A DNA stretch of 54,735 bases from assembly GCA_024225195.1 (NCBI GenBank), contig JAAEMV010000138.1, forward strand, positions 1-54,735. The letters run 5' to 3'. Origin of the DNA: Planctomycetaceae bacterium. GTDB taxonomy: Bacteria; Planctomycetota; Planctomycetia; Pirellulales; Pirellulaceae. The notes under the pieces were generated by a model that was not told the origin of the DNA, ran no database searches, and was given only the letters and a program-made list of their open reading frames with translations. Positions 31,969 through 36,648 of the stretch are shown here, one piece after another. How positions within the stretch are numbered: position 1 is the stretch's first letter; every line of letters starts with the position of its first letter. Both the position numbers and the translations under genes were made by a program.

Positions 31969-32565
31969 CTATCTCTCAAGTACGTTTGGTGAATCACTTC
32001 GTTTTGAAACATCGACAGGATTCACCGCTTGCCCCAAACGACTAATCACCACCTTCGCAGACTTGCCGTATTTGAAGTCGACGTGATTTAATTGATCTTC
32101 ATTGAGTTCGAAAAAAACTCGATTCTCAACTTTCCACTTGCGGACCGTTTTATCACCGGAAATCTCAAAATAGAGCCACGCCTTTTTTAAATCCCGCTCA
32201 TGACCGACCCAGCGAATCGATGTGGCGGGGGCCTTTTCGGAATTGGAATCTGCCTGTCCATCGGCGCTGGTAATGCGAAACTTTTTTCCAATGTAGGCTT
32301 CCAGTAACTGATCGAGGTTCTCGACCTCATCTAAGTCCACGCTCTTTCCAGTATCACCTTTGAGGGCTTTCTCTAAATCAGCAGGCCAAACGCACAGTGC
32401 AACTTCAAAGTTACCGGACGTCTCATTCCAATTAACTTCCGCATGACTTACATGATAAGGATGAGACGCTTGACAATCAGCAGGCGACGAAACGACCGCT
32501 GCAACAAGAGCCACTCCTAGAAAAAGGCTACGTCGATTAAATCGCTGGCGGTTCATTTCACTCAT
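31969..32565 (-). CDS. DUF6702-like exported protein
   Basis: 198 residues with a signal peptide (to about residue 33, ending CQA). The opening of the mature part, SHPYHVSHAEVNWN, and the interior WVGHERDLKKAWLYFEI match DUF6702 proteins as I know them, whose function is unknown. The gene overlaps the upstream M1 peptidase gene by 8 bp in the form ATGAGTGA, and its SD (AAGGA, seven bases) lies inside that gene's 3' end, so translational coupling is likely. Confidence 0.75.
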   Translation of the reverse strand: MSEMNRQRFNRRSLFLGVALVAAVVSSPADCQASHPYHVSHAEVNWNETSGNFEVALCVWPADLEKALKGDTGKSVDLDEVENLDQLLEAYIGKKFRITSADGQADSNSEKAPATSIRWVGHERDLKKAWLYFEISGDKTVRKWKVENRVFFELNEDQLNHVDFKYGKSAKVVISRLGQAVNPVDVSKRSDSPNVLER

Positions 32566-35107
32566 TGCTTTTTCCTTTCTTCGCTACTGGCTTCTTGGCC
32601 GCAGGCTTTTTCGCTGCTGGCTTCTTGGCCGCAGGTTTTTTCGCCGCTGGCTTCTTGGCTACTGGCTTCTTTTCATCTGATTTTTTACCACCACCCTTTC
32701 CAGCTGCTGACTTCTTAGTTTCCTCAGAAACTTGACCAACCTTGGCAGGTTTTTTACCGGATTTCTTCCGATTCAAATCAGTTTTCATCGGATTCCCACC
32801 GCTGCCCCAACGTGAACTCTTGTAGACATCGAACCGCGACTTCATGATTCGACGAGGAAAATAATTATTCTCCAACTCCACGTCGGCAGTCTCCAGTCGC
32901 GGGTCAAGAACGAGTGACTTAATTGGCTTTTTCGTCATCAACAATTTGGTAACCTTTAAATTGTCTTTTCTCCAAATCTCAGCCGGAATTCGCACGTGCT
33001 GCTTGGTTCCATCCTCGAATTCAGCATCAATAATTACAGGCATTACTAAACCGCCGACATTTTCGATCGTGATGAGATAAAAATTCCTCTTCATCCCAAT
33101 CAGTTTCCTCTCTTCGTCGGTGAGGGATTTCATAAAACTGTCATAACTCCGTCGCTCTTCCGGCGTGACATCAAGAGAGTCGTAACTGTTATAAAAATCT
33201 TTCAGTTCAGGGTACCGATCAGCTCGTTTCACCAAGTCTTTATTAAGTGCCTCTGAATTCGATTCTGGTATTCCATCCCGTTTTGCTCGCCGGATTTTCT
33301 TTTCCAACACGGGATTCTTAGTATTGATATTTAATTGCCGCACTTCAGTGATGGCGAGGTCTACATGGTCATTTGAATAGAACCAACCTCTCCAAAACCA
33401 ATCCAAATCGATTCCGGATGCATCTTCCATCGTACGAAAGAAGTCAGCCGGCATCGGTCGTTTAAACTTCCAACGCTTTGCATATTCTTTAAATGCATAG
33501 TCAAACAGTTCCCGTCCCAAAACCGTCTCTCGCAAAACGTTGAGAGCGGTCGCCGGTTTTGAATAACCGTTAGGACCAAACTGAAGAATCGACTCTGAGT
33601 TAGTCATGATCGGAACTTGATTCGGACTTCGCATATACCCCACAATGTCGCGAGGCTCTCCGCGTCGTGACGGATACCCTTCTTCCCACTCCTGCTCCGA
33701 CAGATATTGAAGAAACGTGTTGAGACCTTCATCCATCCAGGTCCATTGCCGTTCGTCTGTGTTCACGATCATCGGGAAGTAATTATGGCCGACTTCGTGA
33801 ATAATCACTGAAATCAACCCGTACTTGGTGCTCGCCGAGTAGGTTCCGTCTTTCTCCGGTCTCGGTCCGTTAAAGCAGATCATCGGATACTCCATCCCAC
33901 CGACCGGCCCATTAACCGAAATCGCAACAGGGTAGGGGTAGTCGAACGTGTACCGCGAATAAACTTCCAACGTATGAATGATCGCGTGGGTCGAGTACTT
34001 ACTCCACAGCGGCTCGCCTTCATTCGGATAAAAAGACATGGCCATCACGGGGTAGTCGCCAACATTATGTTGCATCGCATCCCAAATGAATTTTCGGGAA
34101 GAGGCGAATGCAAAATCACGAACTTGATCTGCTTTAAAAATCCAGGTCTTCGTGCCGTCTGGCTTGCTCGACTCGTTCTTCTTTGCCTCTTCAGGAGTGA
34201 TAATGAAAAGCGGTTGCTTGGTCGACTTCGCCTGCTCCAGCCGTTCCATTTGCAATTCTGTAAGAACCTGCTCAGGGTTTAAAAGTATCCCCGTCGAAGC
34301 GACAACATGATCGTTGGGGGCAGTAATACGGACGACGTAGTCACCCATCTCAAGTGTAAATTCTCCACGTCCAAGAAATTGCTTGTGCTGCCAACCAGTC
34401 GCATCGGTGTACGCACACAACCGAGGAAACCATTGAGCTACCTCGTAAATGTAATTTCCGTCTTCTTCAAAAAACTCGCAACCACTTCGCCCTCGAAGGA
34501 TGCGGGAGTTATTGATTTCATAATTCCAATCAACCTGGAACTGAAACGTCTGCCCAGGTTCCAATAACTGTGGAAGGTCAACACGCATCATCGTTTTAAC
34601 GATAGTGTGCTTAAGCTTTTTCTTGGTGCTCGCGTCTTCACACCGTGTAATGTGAAATCCTCCGTCAAACACCTCCTTCGCTAACATCGTTTTTAAACTG
34701 CCAAACCCCAATCCCGCGATGTTATCAGTCGTCGTCGTCAAATTGGCATCTGAGTTTGAGCGGTGGATATTCGCATCAAGTTGTAGCCAAAGATAAGAAA
34801 GACGGTCCTTGCTATTGTTTGTGTAAGTAATGACTTCCTTGCCAAACAACTCTTGCGTCTCATCATTTAGGCGGATGTCGATTTCGTAATCAACCTTCTG
34901 CTGCCAATAATCACTACCTGGCGCTCCCGAAGCCGCACGTTCCCGGTTGGGAGTTGGAAGAATCTCCTCCAACTGGCGAAACTTATCCTCTTGGCTGAAC
35001 TTCTGATTTTTTGATTCCTGGCCATACAAACTTGGCGCGGAGACGAGTCCGATGCAAAACGCCATTAAAAAAGTGAACCCGAAAACCTGAACCGATTGAT
35101 ATCTCAT
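32558..35107 (-). CDS. Exported M1-family metallopeptidase with Lys/Ala/Pro-rich C-terminal tail
   Basis: 849 residues from the ATG at 35107 (AAGG eight bases upstream). A signal peptide (about 1-30, ending LYGQ) precedes an M1 aminopeptidase region: substrate-binding GPVGGMEYP (about 400-408, in place of GAMEN), zinc motif HEVGH (437-441) and third ligand E460 in WMDEGLNTF. The last 70 residues are not peptidase: they are highly basic and hold six KKP[AV]A pentapeptides (813-842), like the tail of histone H1 or bacterial HU-like proteins. An exported peptidase with such a polycation tail could bind anionic polymers or DNA outside the cytoplasm. The tail is in frame with no sign of sequence error. 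It is coupled to the DUF6702 gene. Confidence 0.9.
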   Translation of the reverse strand: MRYQSVQVFGFTFLMAFCIGLVSAPSLYGQESKNQKFSQEDKFRQLEEILPTPNRERAASGAPGSDYWQQKVDYEIDIRLNDETQELFGKEVITYTNNSKDRLSYLWLQLDANIHRSNSDANLTTTTDNIAGLGFGSLKTMLAKEVFDGGFHITRCEDASTKKKLKHTIVKTMMRVDLPQLLEPGQTFQFQVDWNYEINNSRILRGRSGCEFFEEDGNYIYEVAQWFPRLCAYTDATGWQHKQFLGRGEFTLEMGDYVVRITAPNDHVVASTGILLNPEQVLTELQMERLEQAKSTKQPLFIITPEEAKKNESSKPDGTKTWIFKADQVRDFAFASSRKFIWDAMQHNVGDYPVMAMSFYPNEGEPLWSKYSTHAIIHTLEVYSRYTFDYPYPVAISVNGPVGGMEYPMICFNGPRPEKDGTYSASTKYGLISVIIHEVGHNYFPMIVNTDERQWTWMDEGLNTFLQYLSEQEWEEGYPSRRGEPRDIVGYMRSPNQVPIMTNSESILQFGPNGYSKPATALNVLRETVLGRELFDYAFKEYAKRWKFKRPMPADFFRTMEDASGIDLDWFWRGWFYSNDHVDLAITEVRQLNINTKNPVLEKKIRRAKRDGIPESNSEALNKDLVKRADRYPELKDFYNSYDSLDVTPEERRSYDSFMKSLTDEERKLIGMKRNFYLITIENVGGLVMPVIIDAEFEDGTKQHVRIPAEIWRKDNLKVTKLLMTKKPIKSLVLDPRLETADVELENNYFPRRIMKSRFDVYKSSRWGSGGNPMKTDLNRKKSGKKPAKVGQVSEETKKSAAGKGGGKKSDEKKPVAKKPAAKKPAAKKPAAKKPAAKKPVAKKGKSNE
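32582..32671 (-). repeat. Six 15 bp repeats encoding KKP[AV]A
   Basis: Six in-frame 15 bp units near the 3' end of the M1 peptidase gene encode KKPVA, KKPAA four times, and KKPVA. They differ mostly at third codon positions. Confidence 0.85.
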
Positions 35108-36012
35108 TTGAAAACCTTGGCAAATCACAGCAGTAAACTCATAGAACGTAATTCTTATAAAAGAACGTTACTATATTACGCTGGACAAACCGCGAAGGGT
35201 GCCCCTTATTGCAATTCATCGCTGGATTAATCGATTACCGAACGATTTTGAGGCCTAGACCTTGGTAATAAAAACCAGAACAGTGAAAGCGATTACAGAT
35301 CTGGCCAAGACTAACTGCAAATTGAACGTCCAGTCAAAGGCCGACTTCTTCCGGTAAGCGTGCCTCTCCGCCAATTCCGCCTTTGGAATCAAGGCTCAAC
35401 CAACCGAGAGGGCTCCGGAAATCAATCTGAGCGTAATTGGCCTCAACTACCAATAATCCAACCAACGACGGGCCGCGCATAACAGCCGTTCCAAGTATCG
35501 GGACAACTTCCCAAATGAACCTTCCCAAATCAACAAAGGCTTTAGAGAACGACCTCAAATAGGCTACGAACCCCGTCACGCTAGATTATCAGGCGATAAC
35601 GTTGTGAAAACACAACCGGGCAGCGGCCGTTATTGGCCGTCGATCTTCTCTACCCCTAACAATCTGATCCACCTAATCCCCCTAATGTGCGATACATGAC
35701 GCACGAACGAGGGTAGTTGGCATTTAACAGCGAGGAATTTTAAAAAAAACTCGAATTCCTTTTGAACTCATACATGCGGCAGAAACCCCACAAAAAGAAT
35801 AAAAACACCGCCAACAGGCCACCTAAGGCACTTTTTTTCCCACTAAACTGGTATTGCATTCAATCCGAATCGCTTACCTCTTTTTTTTCATTTGTTTAGC
35901 CGGCAAAAACACCCCATCTTGTTGACAGACCCCAAATTTCAACATAACTTTTCATCTGTTAAATCAACCCTTTCACATCGTTTTCGATTCTAAGAGATAG
36001 GAGACCCATTTC
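35108..36012. other. Long spacer before the Cys-repeat gene
   Basis: 905 bases. The right end holds the promoter at 35922-35950 and poly-T tracts. An 81-codon minus-strand frame (35334-35579) has no SD and no family resemblance; it could be a decayed gene but I do not call it. GTGCG/CGCAC arms at about 35686-35703 form a small palindrome of unknown meaning. Nothing else is apparent. Confidence 0.5.
35922..35950 (+). promoter_or_regulatory. Sigma-70-type promoter of the Cys-repeat gene
   Basis: TTGACA (35922-35927) and TAACTT (35945-35950) are 17 bases apart. The predicted start near 35957 leaves a leader of about 55 bases to the ATG at 36013. Confidence 0.5.
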
Positions 36013-36588
36013 ATGAATCGCGTTATTTGTTCGCTGATCGTATTCAGCCTGTTCTTGGTGGCCAATTCAGCCGACGCTGCTGGCCCACTTTTTAAGAAGC
36101 GCTGTTGCGCTCCTGCACCTTCATGCTGCACTCCAGCTCCAGCAACTTGCTGTGACGCTGATCCTTGCTGCAAAACTCGCGTTGGCCTTATGGCTCGCTT
36201 GAAAGCACGCAAATGTTGCGAGCCTGCACCAGCTCCTTGCTGTGCTGAAGTTGCTGATCCTTGCTGCAAAACTCGCGTAGGTCTTTTGGCTCGCTTGAAA
36301 GCACGCAAATGCTGCAAGCCGGATCCTTGCTGTGCTCCAGTAGAAGCTGCTGAGCCAGTTCCAGCTGAGCCAGTTGCTGAAGTTGCAACTGCATGCTGCG
36401 AAGCTGATCCTTGCTGCAAGAAGCGCGTTGGACTCATGCAACGACTTCGCTCACGTAAGTGCTGCAAGCCGGATCCATGCTGCGAAGCTGCTCCTGTTGA
36501 GCCAGTTGCAACTGCATGCTGCAAGAAGCGCGTTGGCGTTGTTGCTAAGCTTAAAGCACGCAAGTGCTGCAAGCCTAACCCTTGCTAA
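36013..36588 (+). CDS. Secreted protein of tandem Cys-Cys, Arg/Lys-rich repeats
   Basis: 191 residues with a signal peptide (1-23, ending DAAG). The mature part holds 31 cysteines, 30 of them as 15 CC pairs. Four repeats follow the scheme CC-K-[TK]-RVG-x2-[AQ]-[RK]-L-[KR]-[AS]-RKCC, each followed by a Pro-rich linker such as KPDPCC or EPAPAPCC, with Ala/Glu/Pro/Val spacers between repeats. It has a perfect -35 promoter, GGAG before the ATG, and a strong terminator, so it looks well expressed. I know no named family. Export suggests a disulfide cross-linked wall or matrix protein, or a metal-binding protein; both are inference. Confidence 0.85.
   Translation: MNRVICSLIVFSLFLVANSADAAGPLFKKRCCAPAPSCCTPAPATCCDADPCCKTRVGLMARLKARKCCEPAPAPCCAEVADPCCKTRVGLLARLKARKCCKPDPCCAPVEAAEPVPAEPVAEVATACCEADPCCKKRVGLMQRLRSRKCCKPDPCCEAAPVEPVATACCKKRVGVVAKLKARKCCKPNPC
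36157..36570 (+). repeat. Four in-gene repeats of about 60 bp
   Basis: Units at 36157-36219, 36253-36315, 36403-36465 and 36511-36570. The first two are nearly identical and 96 bases apart (both start GCTGATCCTTGCTGCAAAAC); the others are diverged. They encode the CCK-x-RVG...RKCC repeats. Confidence 0.85.
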
Positions 36589-36615: not shown

Positions 36616-36648
36616 AAGCCGGGCCTGATTTCAGGCTCGGCTTTTTTT
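36616..36648 (+). terminator. Rho-independent terminator of the Cys-repeat gene
   Basis: Thirteen-bp stem AAGCCGGGCCTGA (36616-36628) with TCAGGCTCGGCTT (36631-36643), one G-T pair, two-base centre, followed by further T. An A-run precedes it. Confidence 0.9.

Follow-up and report, generated by a model that had tools for sequence, protein, structure and literature searches.

The gene at positions 36013–36588 of the window (the whole 54,735-nucleotide stretch of DNA that was analysed, from a Planctomycetaceae bacterium) raises the question of what a planctomycete would do with a secreted protein built from paired cysteines and basic repeats. A sequence-only reading had called the product an abundant exported protein of a type that could not be placed, and had suggested a disulfide-cross-linked layer, metal binding or the precursor of an antimicrobial-like peptide.

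The source of the disulfide-dependent protein layer of planctomycetes has been debated since the 1980s. According to passages of PMC8567305, protein was suggested to be the main component of planctomycete walls (Konig 1984 and Liesack 1986 are cited for this), and YTV-domain proteins rich in cysteine have been found in cell-wall preparations of planctomycetes. A protein sacculus with disulfide bonds is mentioned in a passage of PMC2754498, and a passage of PMC10632474 places a YTV protein within a planctomycete-restricted essential group and mentions a suggestion that it affects wall rigidity via its cysteine. In the passages of PMC8567305 and PMC10632474, YTV-domain proteins are the sole Cys-rich wall proteins named.

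Results

The encoded protein

The open reading frame (36013–36588, + strand, ATG start, TAA stop) encodes 191 amino acids. By inspection it begins with a Sec-type signal peptide (MNRVICSLIVFSLFLVANSADA, 36013–36078, + strand) that has an AxA site and no lipobox. The protein contains 32 cysteines, 31 of them past the predicted AxA cleavage site; the mature part, of about 168–169 residues, is 18.3% Cys, with abundant Ala, Pro, Lys and Arg and a pI of about 8.9. The translation bore out exactly the earlier count of 15 CC pairs in about 168 mature residues. When the whole protein was shuffled 2000 times, the mean was 4.4 pairs and no shuffle exceeded 9; for the mature part the mean was 4.7 and the highest count 10.

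The four RVG...RKCC repeats reported from the sequence are likewise present, with RVG at residues 56, 88, 138 and 173 and the consensus RVGxxx[R/K]L[KR]xRKCC common to all four. Repeat analysis and unit profiles placed repeat unit 1 (CCDADPCCKTRVGLMARLKARKCCEP) at 36148–36225, and the unit profiles placed unit 2 (..EVADPCCKTRVGLLARLKARKCCKP) at 36238–36321, unit 3 (CCEADPCCKKRVGLMQRLRSRKCCKP) at 36394–36471 and a shortened unit 4 (ATACCKKRVGVVAKLKARKCCKP) at 36508–36576, all on the + strand. In each repeat a basic segment lies between CC flanks, and the spacing CC-x4-CC is short. An AlphaFold model of the protein, made from a shallow alignment of 11 rows, had a pLDDT of 38.5, a pTM of 0.14 and no fold, which is consistent with disorder and also with the shallow alignment; its quality was too low for a fold search. 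A minus-strand open reading frame overlying the repeats (35973–36572, 199 aa) was taken as a mechanical mirror ORF.

Conservation of the locus in the genus

An aldo-keto reductase (AKR) gene lies downstream, and it was found in 16/28 genus genomes (E ≤ 1e-30). A CC-rich secreted gene adjoins it in 11 of these 16, namely the seven genomes with close orthologues (the own genome plus six others of the genus) together with G024 (L014/L037), G021 (L010/L041), G004 (L039) and G009 (L044). No CC-rich gene occurred within 1.5 kb upstream of the AKR gene in G011, G012, G013 or G015, and in the sixteenth AKR genome, G008, the contig ends beside that gene. The locus is syntenic in congeners; a plasmid origin was rejected on this ground and because there was no match in 72,556 plasmid records (low-complexity filter on).

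Across the seven close orthologues, 32/32 Cys and 14/14 Arg are invariant, as are 22/23 Pro, and the eight pairs computed gave dN/dS values of 0.02–0.18. The promoter-and-leader DNA of the window matched 10/28 genus genomes (E ≤ 0.01), G009 not being among them. Three of the distant loci, L010, L014 and L039, have near-same signal peptides followed by a mature part made of other CC, Pro and basic blocks, for instance tandem CCAPAPAP. Since the leaders are alike and the mature blocks differ in these three, the alignments indicate that the expression signals, the composition and, for the most part, the leader of the locus are retained, and that its repeats are rebuilt.

Promoter, leader and terminator

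Upstream sequences were aligned for nine loci, six close and three distant (L010, L014, L039). The perfect −35 box TTGACA (35922–35927, + strand) was unchanged in 9/9 of them, despite the diverged flanks of the three distant loci. Two loci outside the alignment, L006 (close) and L044 (distant, with another signal peptide), both have TTGACA and AGGAG upstream, and TTGACA stands before 11/11 of the CC genes found adjoining an AKR gene; the −35 box of the sequence-only reading is thus real and conserved. The putative −10 box TAACTT (35945–35950, + strand), 17 nt from the −35 box, is a weak match that keeps TA....T. At this same 17-nt spacing L010, L014 and L039 have TA[AC]C[GT]T, and a one-base deletion in L008 places its −10 box at 16 nt. 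A generic sigma-70 consensus scan listed no + strand promoter there.

A ribosome-binding site, AGGAG (35999–36003, + strand), lies 9 nt 5′ of the ATG, and AGGAGACCC ahead of the ATG is invariant in 9/9 aligned loci. The predicted intrinsic terminator (36616–36643, + strand) also proved real, with a 12-bp stem followed by a T run, and is retained in 6/6 close loci aligned.

Among signal-peptide codons that specify the same residue (the start ATG counted), 15/18 are identical in L010, 15/17 in L014 and 13/20 in L039. The corresponding figures for the AKR gene, with Met and Trp left out, were 52/164 in L010 and 61/183 in L014. In G009 (L044) the signal peptide differs and 1/4 same-residue codons are identical. 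Conservation of the leader codons far above the protein level points to a possible constraint on the RNA or on translation start. The hairpin GCTGA-TCGTAT-TCAGC lies at 36033–36048 within the signal-peptide codons, and its stem GCTGA...TCAGC is invariant across the nine aligned loci. An Rfam scan at the locus found no family near its gathering score.

Expression level

Measured against ten ribosomal-protein genes of the same genome, whose own values run from 0.76 to 0.87, the codon adaptation of the gene was 0.839, the top value of 36 hand-picked window ORFs (median 0.70), and it was 0.828 without the Cys codons. Arginine is an exception, being encoded by CGC in 12/14 cases, and the ribosomal genes favour CGA and CGT more. 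Relative to genome G017 the dS of the gene was 0.26, that of four neighbours 0.86, 1.11, 1.12 and 1.35, that of ten ribosomal-protein genes 0.12–0.75, and that of secY 0.80. Taken together, the codon adaptation and the low dS point to high expression; gene conversion among the repeats could be an alternative cause of the low dS. The description "abundant exported" thus gained indirect backing for its first word, through codon adaptation and dS, and export is predicted from the signal peptide. The planctomycete probably makes the CC protein in quantity.

Relatives of the CC unit

The window protein had zero Pfam and zero NCBIfam matches (E ≤ 1) and no PDB match, so that no characterised family close to it was found in the three databases, in keeping with its description as a type that could not be placed. 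Weak Pfam and NCBIfam scores of relatives against Agouti, Rod_cone_degen and ribosomal L34 were below curated cut-offs, look like composition matches and were set aside. The titles and abstract openings searched gave no account of such a CC-repeat family.

With the window protein as sole query, 14/60 genomes matched (E ≤ 0.01; own genome included), and this first search already recovered L009, L012, L013 and L020. A scan of genome contigs gave nine loci: six close ones (Mariniblastus, Pirellulaceae or Planctomycetota), one each in SZUA-33 and Dive96, and one in a Fuerstiella. The pattern CCxxDPCC occurred in 12/292 genomes across the phylum; it was replaced by a profile because the inspected places outside the own genome were mostly unrelated or out-of-frame.

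Profile A1, built from the repeat unit with 15 rows, matched 29/297 genomes of the order. Profile A2, with 28 rows taken partly from A1 matches, matched 91/396 genomes of the order in 30/147 genera (E ≤ 1e-3), and 13/22 genomes of that sample within the own genus. In a phylum sample A2 matched 5/292 genomes, all Pirellulales; these five fall among 11 Pirellulales genomes there (a count from a same-size draw), and none of the 281 genomes outside the order matched. Since the Fuerstiella locus (L029) belongs to Planctomycetales, the family also has a member outside Pirellulales. The four matches of A2 within the window protein (best E 8.7e-11) arise by construction, as the profile was built with two of the protein's own units. 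The profile search with the repeat thus revealed what is, by its sequence features, an uncatalogued family centred on Pirellulales.

We read proteins from the best-scoring loci only (52 from 48 genomes), so that among the 91 genomes the reading covered the higher-scoring half. In 51 of these loci an ORF was matched by a locally built profile, five of the ORFs being duplicates and several near-identical. Of these profile-matched proteins a signal-like N-terminus was present in 50/51 by a simple pattern (not SignalP), and at least 20 Cys in 49/51. In a collection of 55 Cys-rich secreted proteins, of which four are YTV proteins, the Cys count is odd in 37 of the 51 CC-type proteins, near-identical relatives included. 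The usual layout is a signal peptide, often ending A[ED]AGLF, then CC[EAP]PAPxCC blocks and one to four units, each unit running DPCC-basic helix-CC; many relatives have a single unit with CCEPAP blocks. The window protein contains the unit as defined (CC..DPCC-K/P-x-R-x-G[LF]xARLKxR..CC), as well as the signal peptide and the at least 20 Cys that characterise the family. Some profile matches have few CC pairs (one in L107, none in L108, three in L109 and in L140). The mature pI spans 4.3–9.5 across the family, with several acidic members, so that overall charge is not conserved.

One acidic relative (L015 1477–2412, in G018) has CC-flanked repeats, CCGINLDLRGRLSGLVSRLGSIGN, replacing the basic helix. 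We also observed A[GQ][LIM]F in the first 50 residues of 29/55 collected proteins, the YTV protein L075 among them; this motif may serve sorting or processing in all of them.

The CC unit at the end of a second family

A second secreted Cys-rich family (MFKF...VTDECGC...) has one CC unit as its C-terminal end. Two of its members, L168 (G025) and L169 (G024), were hit when the unit profile was run on a small database (E 2.8e-6 and E 5.4e-6). The copy in the own genome (G000:C713, L002 1492–1884, − strand) matched the whole window protein at E 0.037 only and did not match the unit profile alone; it was counted among the carriers because it is kin to L168 and L169 and its tail aligns with theirs, and the three-row profile matched A2 with a probability of 96.4%. 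This family had no Pfam match (E ≤ 1), and L002 and L169 had no NCBIfam match (E ≤ 0.1). Because the same unit terminates another secreted Cys-rich family, the CC unit is, judged by these alignments, a module with a use beyond tandem repeats.

Comparison with YTV proteins

The genome also encodes a YTV protein (G000:C188, PF07639, E 5.5e-21), and a YTV query matched 60/60 genomes (E ≤ 1e-5; the Pfam check covered just three of the proteins hit or used as query). Membership of the window protein in PF07639 was rejected, as it had no Pfam match (E ≤ 1) and no convincing pairwise or profile match; in a single BLAST comparison with one YTV protein, residues 1–103 aligned at 25% identity with a weak E of 0.009. 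A YTV domain was likewise missing from nine relatives (E ≤ 0.1) and from another five Cys-rich proteins (E ≤ 1), and the positive controls L075, L167 and L117 did match Pfam YTV.

Three YTV-type proteins of the genus end in a basic segment and then a Cys-rich tail, such as GLFAGCGCRSN.CC (L167 1704–1844, L117 2908–3069 and L114 1237–1395 on the − strand). These tails resemble the CC unit in style, but a profile comparison gave no alignment (probability 6% over 3 columns) and homology was not detectable. Both kinds of protein are secreted, Cys-rich and repetitive, occur in the same genomes and likely have similar chemistry, whereas the window protein is smaller, built of CC pairs and patchy within its order.

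Gene neighbourhood

The neighbours scanned include an M1 peptidase, DUF6702, the aldo-keto reductase, an ABC ATPase, an ion channel and an M28 peptidase; at 15–18 kb from the CC gene there are also a PEP-CTERM protein and a sulfatase. For the ABC ATPase, none of the 25 NCBIfam models listed, one for lantibiotic protection included, reached its cut-off. The M1-family peptidase (32558–35128, − strand) carries C-terminal KKPAAKKPAAKK repeats that resemble histone H1-like tails.

Discussion

Our preferred reading, which we hold with little more than even confidence, is that the gene encodes an abundant, Sec-exported, largely unfolded matrix protein of the envelope that cross-links through disulfides. 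A disulfide-cross-linked layer appears, on sequence grounds, the best of the three functions proposed for it. The conserved promoter would drive strong expression, as sequence and codon evidence suggest, and the product is predicted to be exported and then to lose its signal peptide. The chain would leave the cell unfolded and be oxidized outside the inner membrane. VKOR was rejected as the oxidation route when it was not found in the own genome; the family (PF07884) occurs in 12/28 genus genomes and in 0/7 carriers of the close orthologues.

Since vicinal cysteines seldom bond to each other, each CC node should bond other segments or chains, and the 31 mature cysteines, being odd in number, cannot all pair inside one chain. 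Bonds would then form among chains of the protein itself, and probably with other Cys-rich exported proteins such as YTV, giving a covalently linked layer of the envelope in which the short basic helices that separate the CC nodes would bind acidic cell-surface polymers. In a disulfide-cured matrix, composition and cysteine spacing would outweigh exact sequence. A leader that is kept while CC-Pro-basic blocks are swapped is as one would expect of a matrix polymer, not of an enzyme. The invariant cysteines, the signs of high expression, the secreted Cys-rich relatives and the coexisting YTV protein also argue for this reading.

Several observations weigh against it. The CC family is patchy in the order (91/396 genomes) and is thus no wall component common to all its members. 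Of the 16 AKR genomes, four are without an adjoining CC-rich gene, no VKOR was found in the own genome, the charge of the family is not conserved, some profile matches have few or no CC pairs, and the YTV tails show no homology that the profiles could detect.

The very high Cys content, the short CC-x4-CC spacing and the invariance of 32/32 Cys in the seven orthologues would also suit an exported metal-binding or thiol-buffer protein whose CC nodes bind Cu, Zn or Cd or scavenge oxidants, in the manner of an extracellular metallothionein. We consider this unlikely, as there was no metallothionein or other Pfam or NCBIfam match (E ≤ 1) and no metal-resistance family among the neighbours scanned, the window protein was checked for CxC motifs and has none, and the mature part has been rebuilt from one congener to another. 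That the protein is instead a precursor of cationic antimicrobial or signalling peptides, cleaved at its repeats, could be read from the CC-flanked basic segments in every repeat and from the M1 peptidase and ABC-transporter ATPase nearby on the opposite strand. However, no antimicrobial-peptide or immunity family was present among the neighbours scanned, many relatives combine a single unit with CCEPAP blocks and several members are acidic overall; we judge this suggestion of the sequence-only reading to be highly improbable.

A matrix cured by disulfides might also lie outside the cell, as an adhesive or holdfast that aids attachment and is not part of the wall. Its sequence features would be equally those of an envelope matrix, and the patchy distribution and repeat rebuilding suit surface-exposed material; a passage of PMC2754498 describes sessile R. 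baltica cells that make a holdfast substance. Among the neighbours scanned, however, none was assigned to a holdfast family, and we think an extracellular role of this kind quite improbable.

The preferred reading, an envelope matrix protein, has likenesses in other systems. Keratin-associated proteins of hair have CC-Pro repeats of a similar style and cross-link a structural layer through disulfides; these are eukaryotic and intracellular, whereas the window protein is bacterial, predicted to be exported and interrupted by basic helical inserts, and the likeness is one of style, with no homology claimed. Within the same superphylum, chlamydial OmcA and OmcB form a disulfide-linked Cys-rich envelope layer with a different architecture; the window protein matches no Pfam family (E ≤ 1). 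Minicollagens have a collagen core and folded Cys domains and are unrelated to it in sequence. In nematocysts, according to a passage of PMC4863159, the short Cys-rich domains of these proteins form polymers through disulfide reshuffling, which gives a tough wall.

A wider and rather doubtful proposal is that, in many Pirellulales, part of the envelope is made of CC-node matrix proteins with quickly rebuilt repeats, a counterpart of the keratin-associated proteins. The CC-basic helix-CC unit would then be a portable cross-linker, placed also on other secreted Cys-rich proteins, and would supply part of the cystine of the "protein sacculus" described in the 1980s. The locus offers a case in which expression signals and leader appear conserved while repeat blocks rebuild the mature protein. 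For the wall puzzle, a further Cys-rich family that no model covers, present in many Pirellulales genomes and showing signs of high expression in this genus, would supply concrete candidate genes and proteins.
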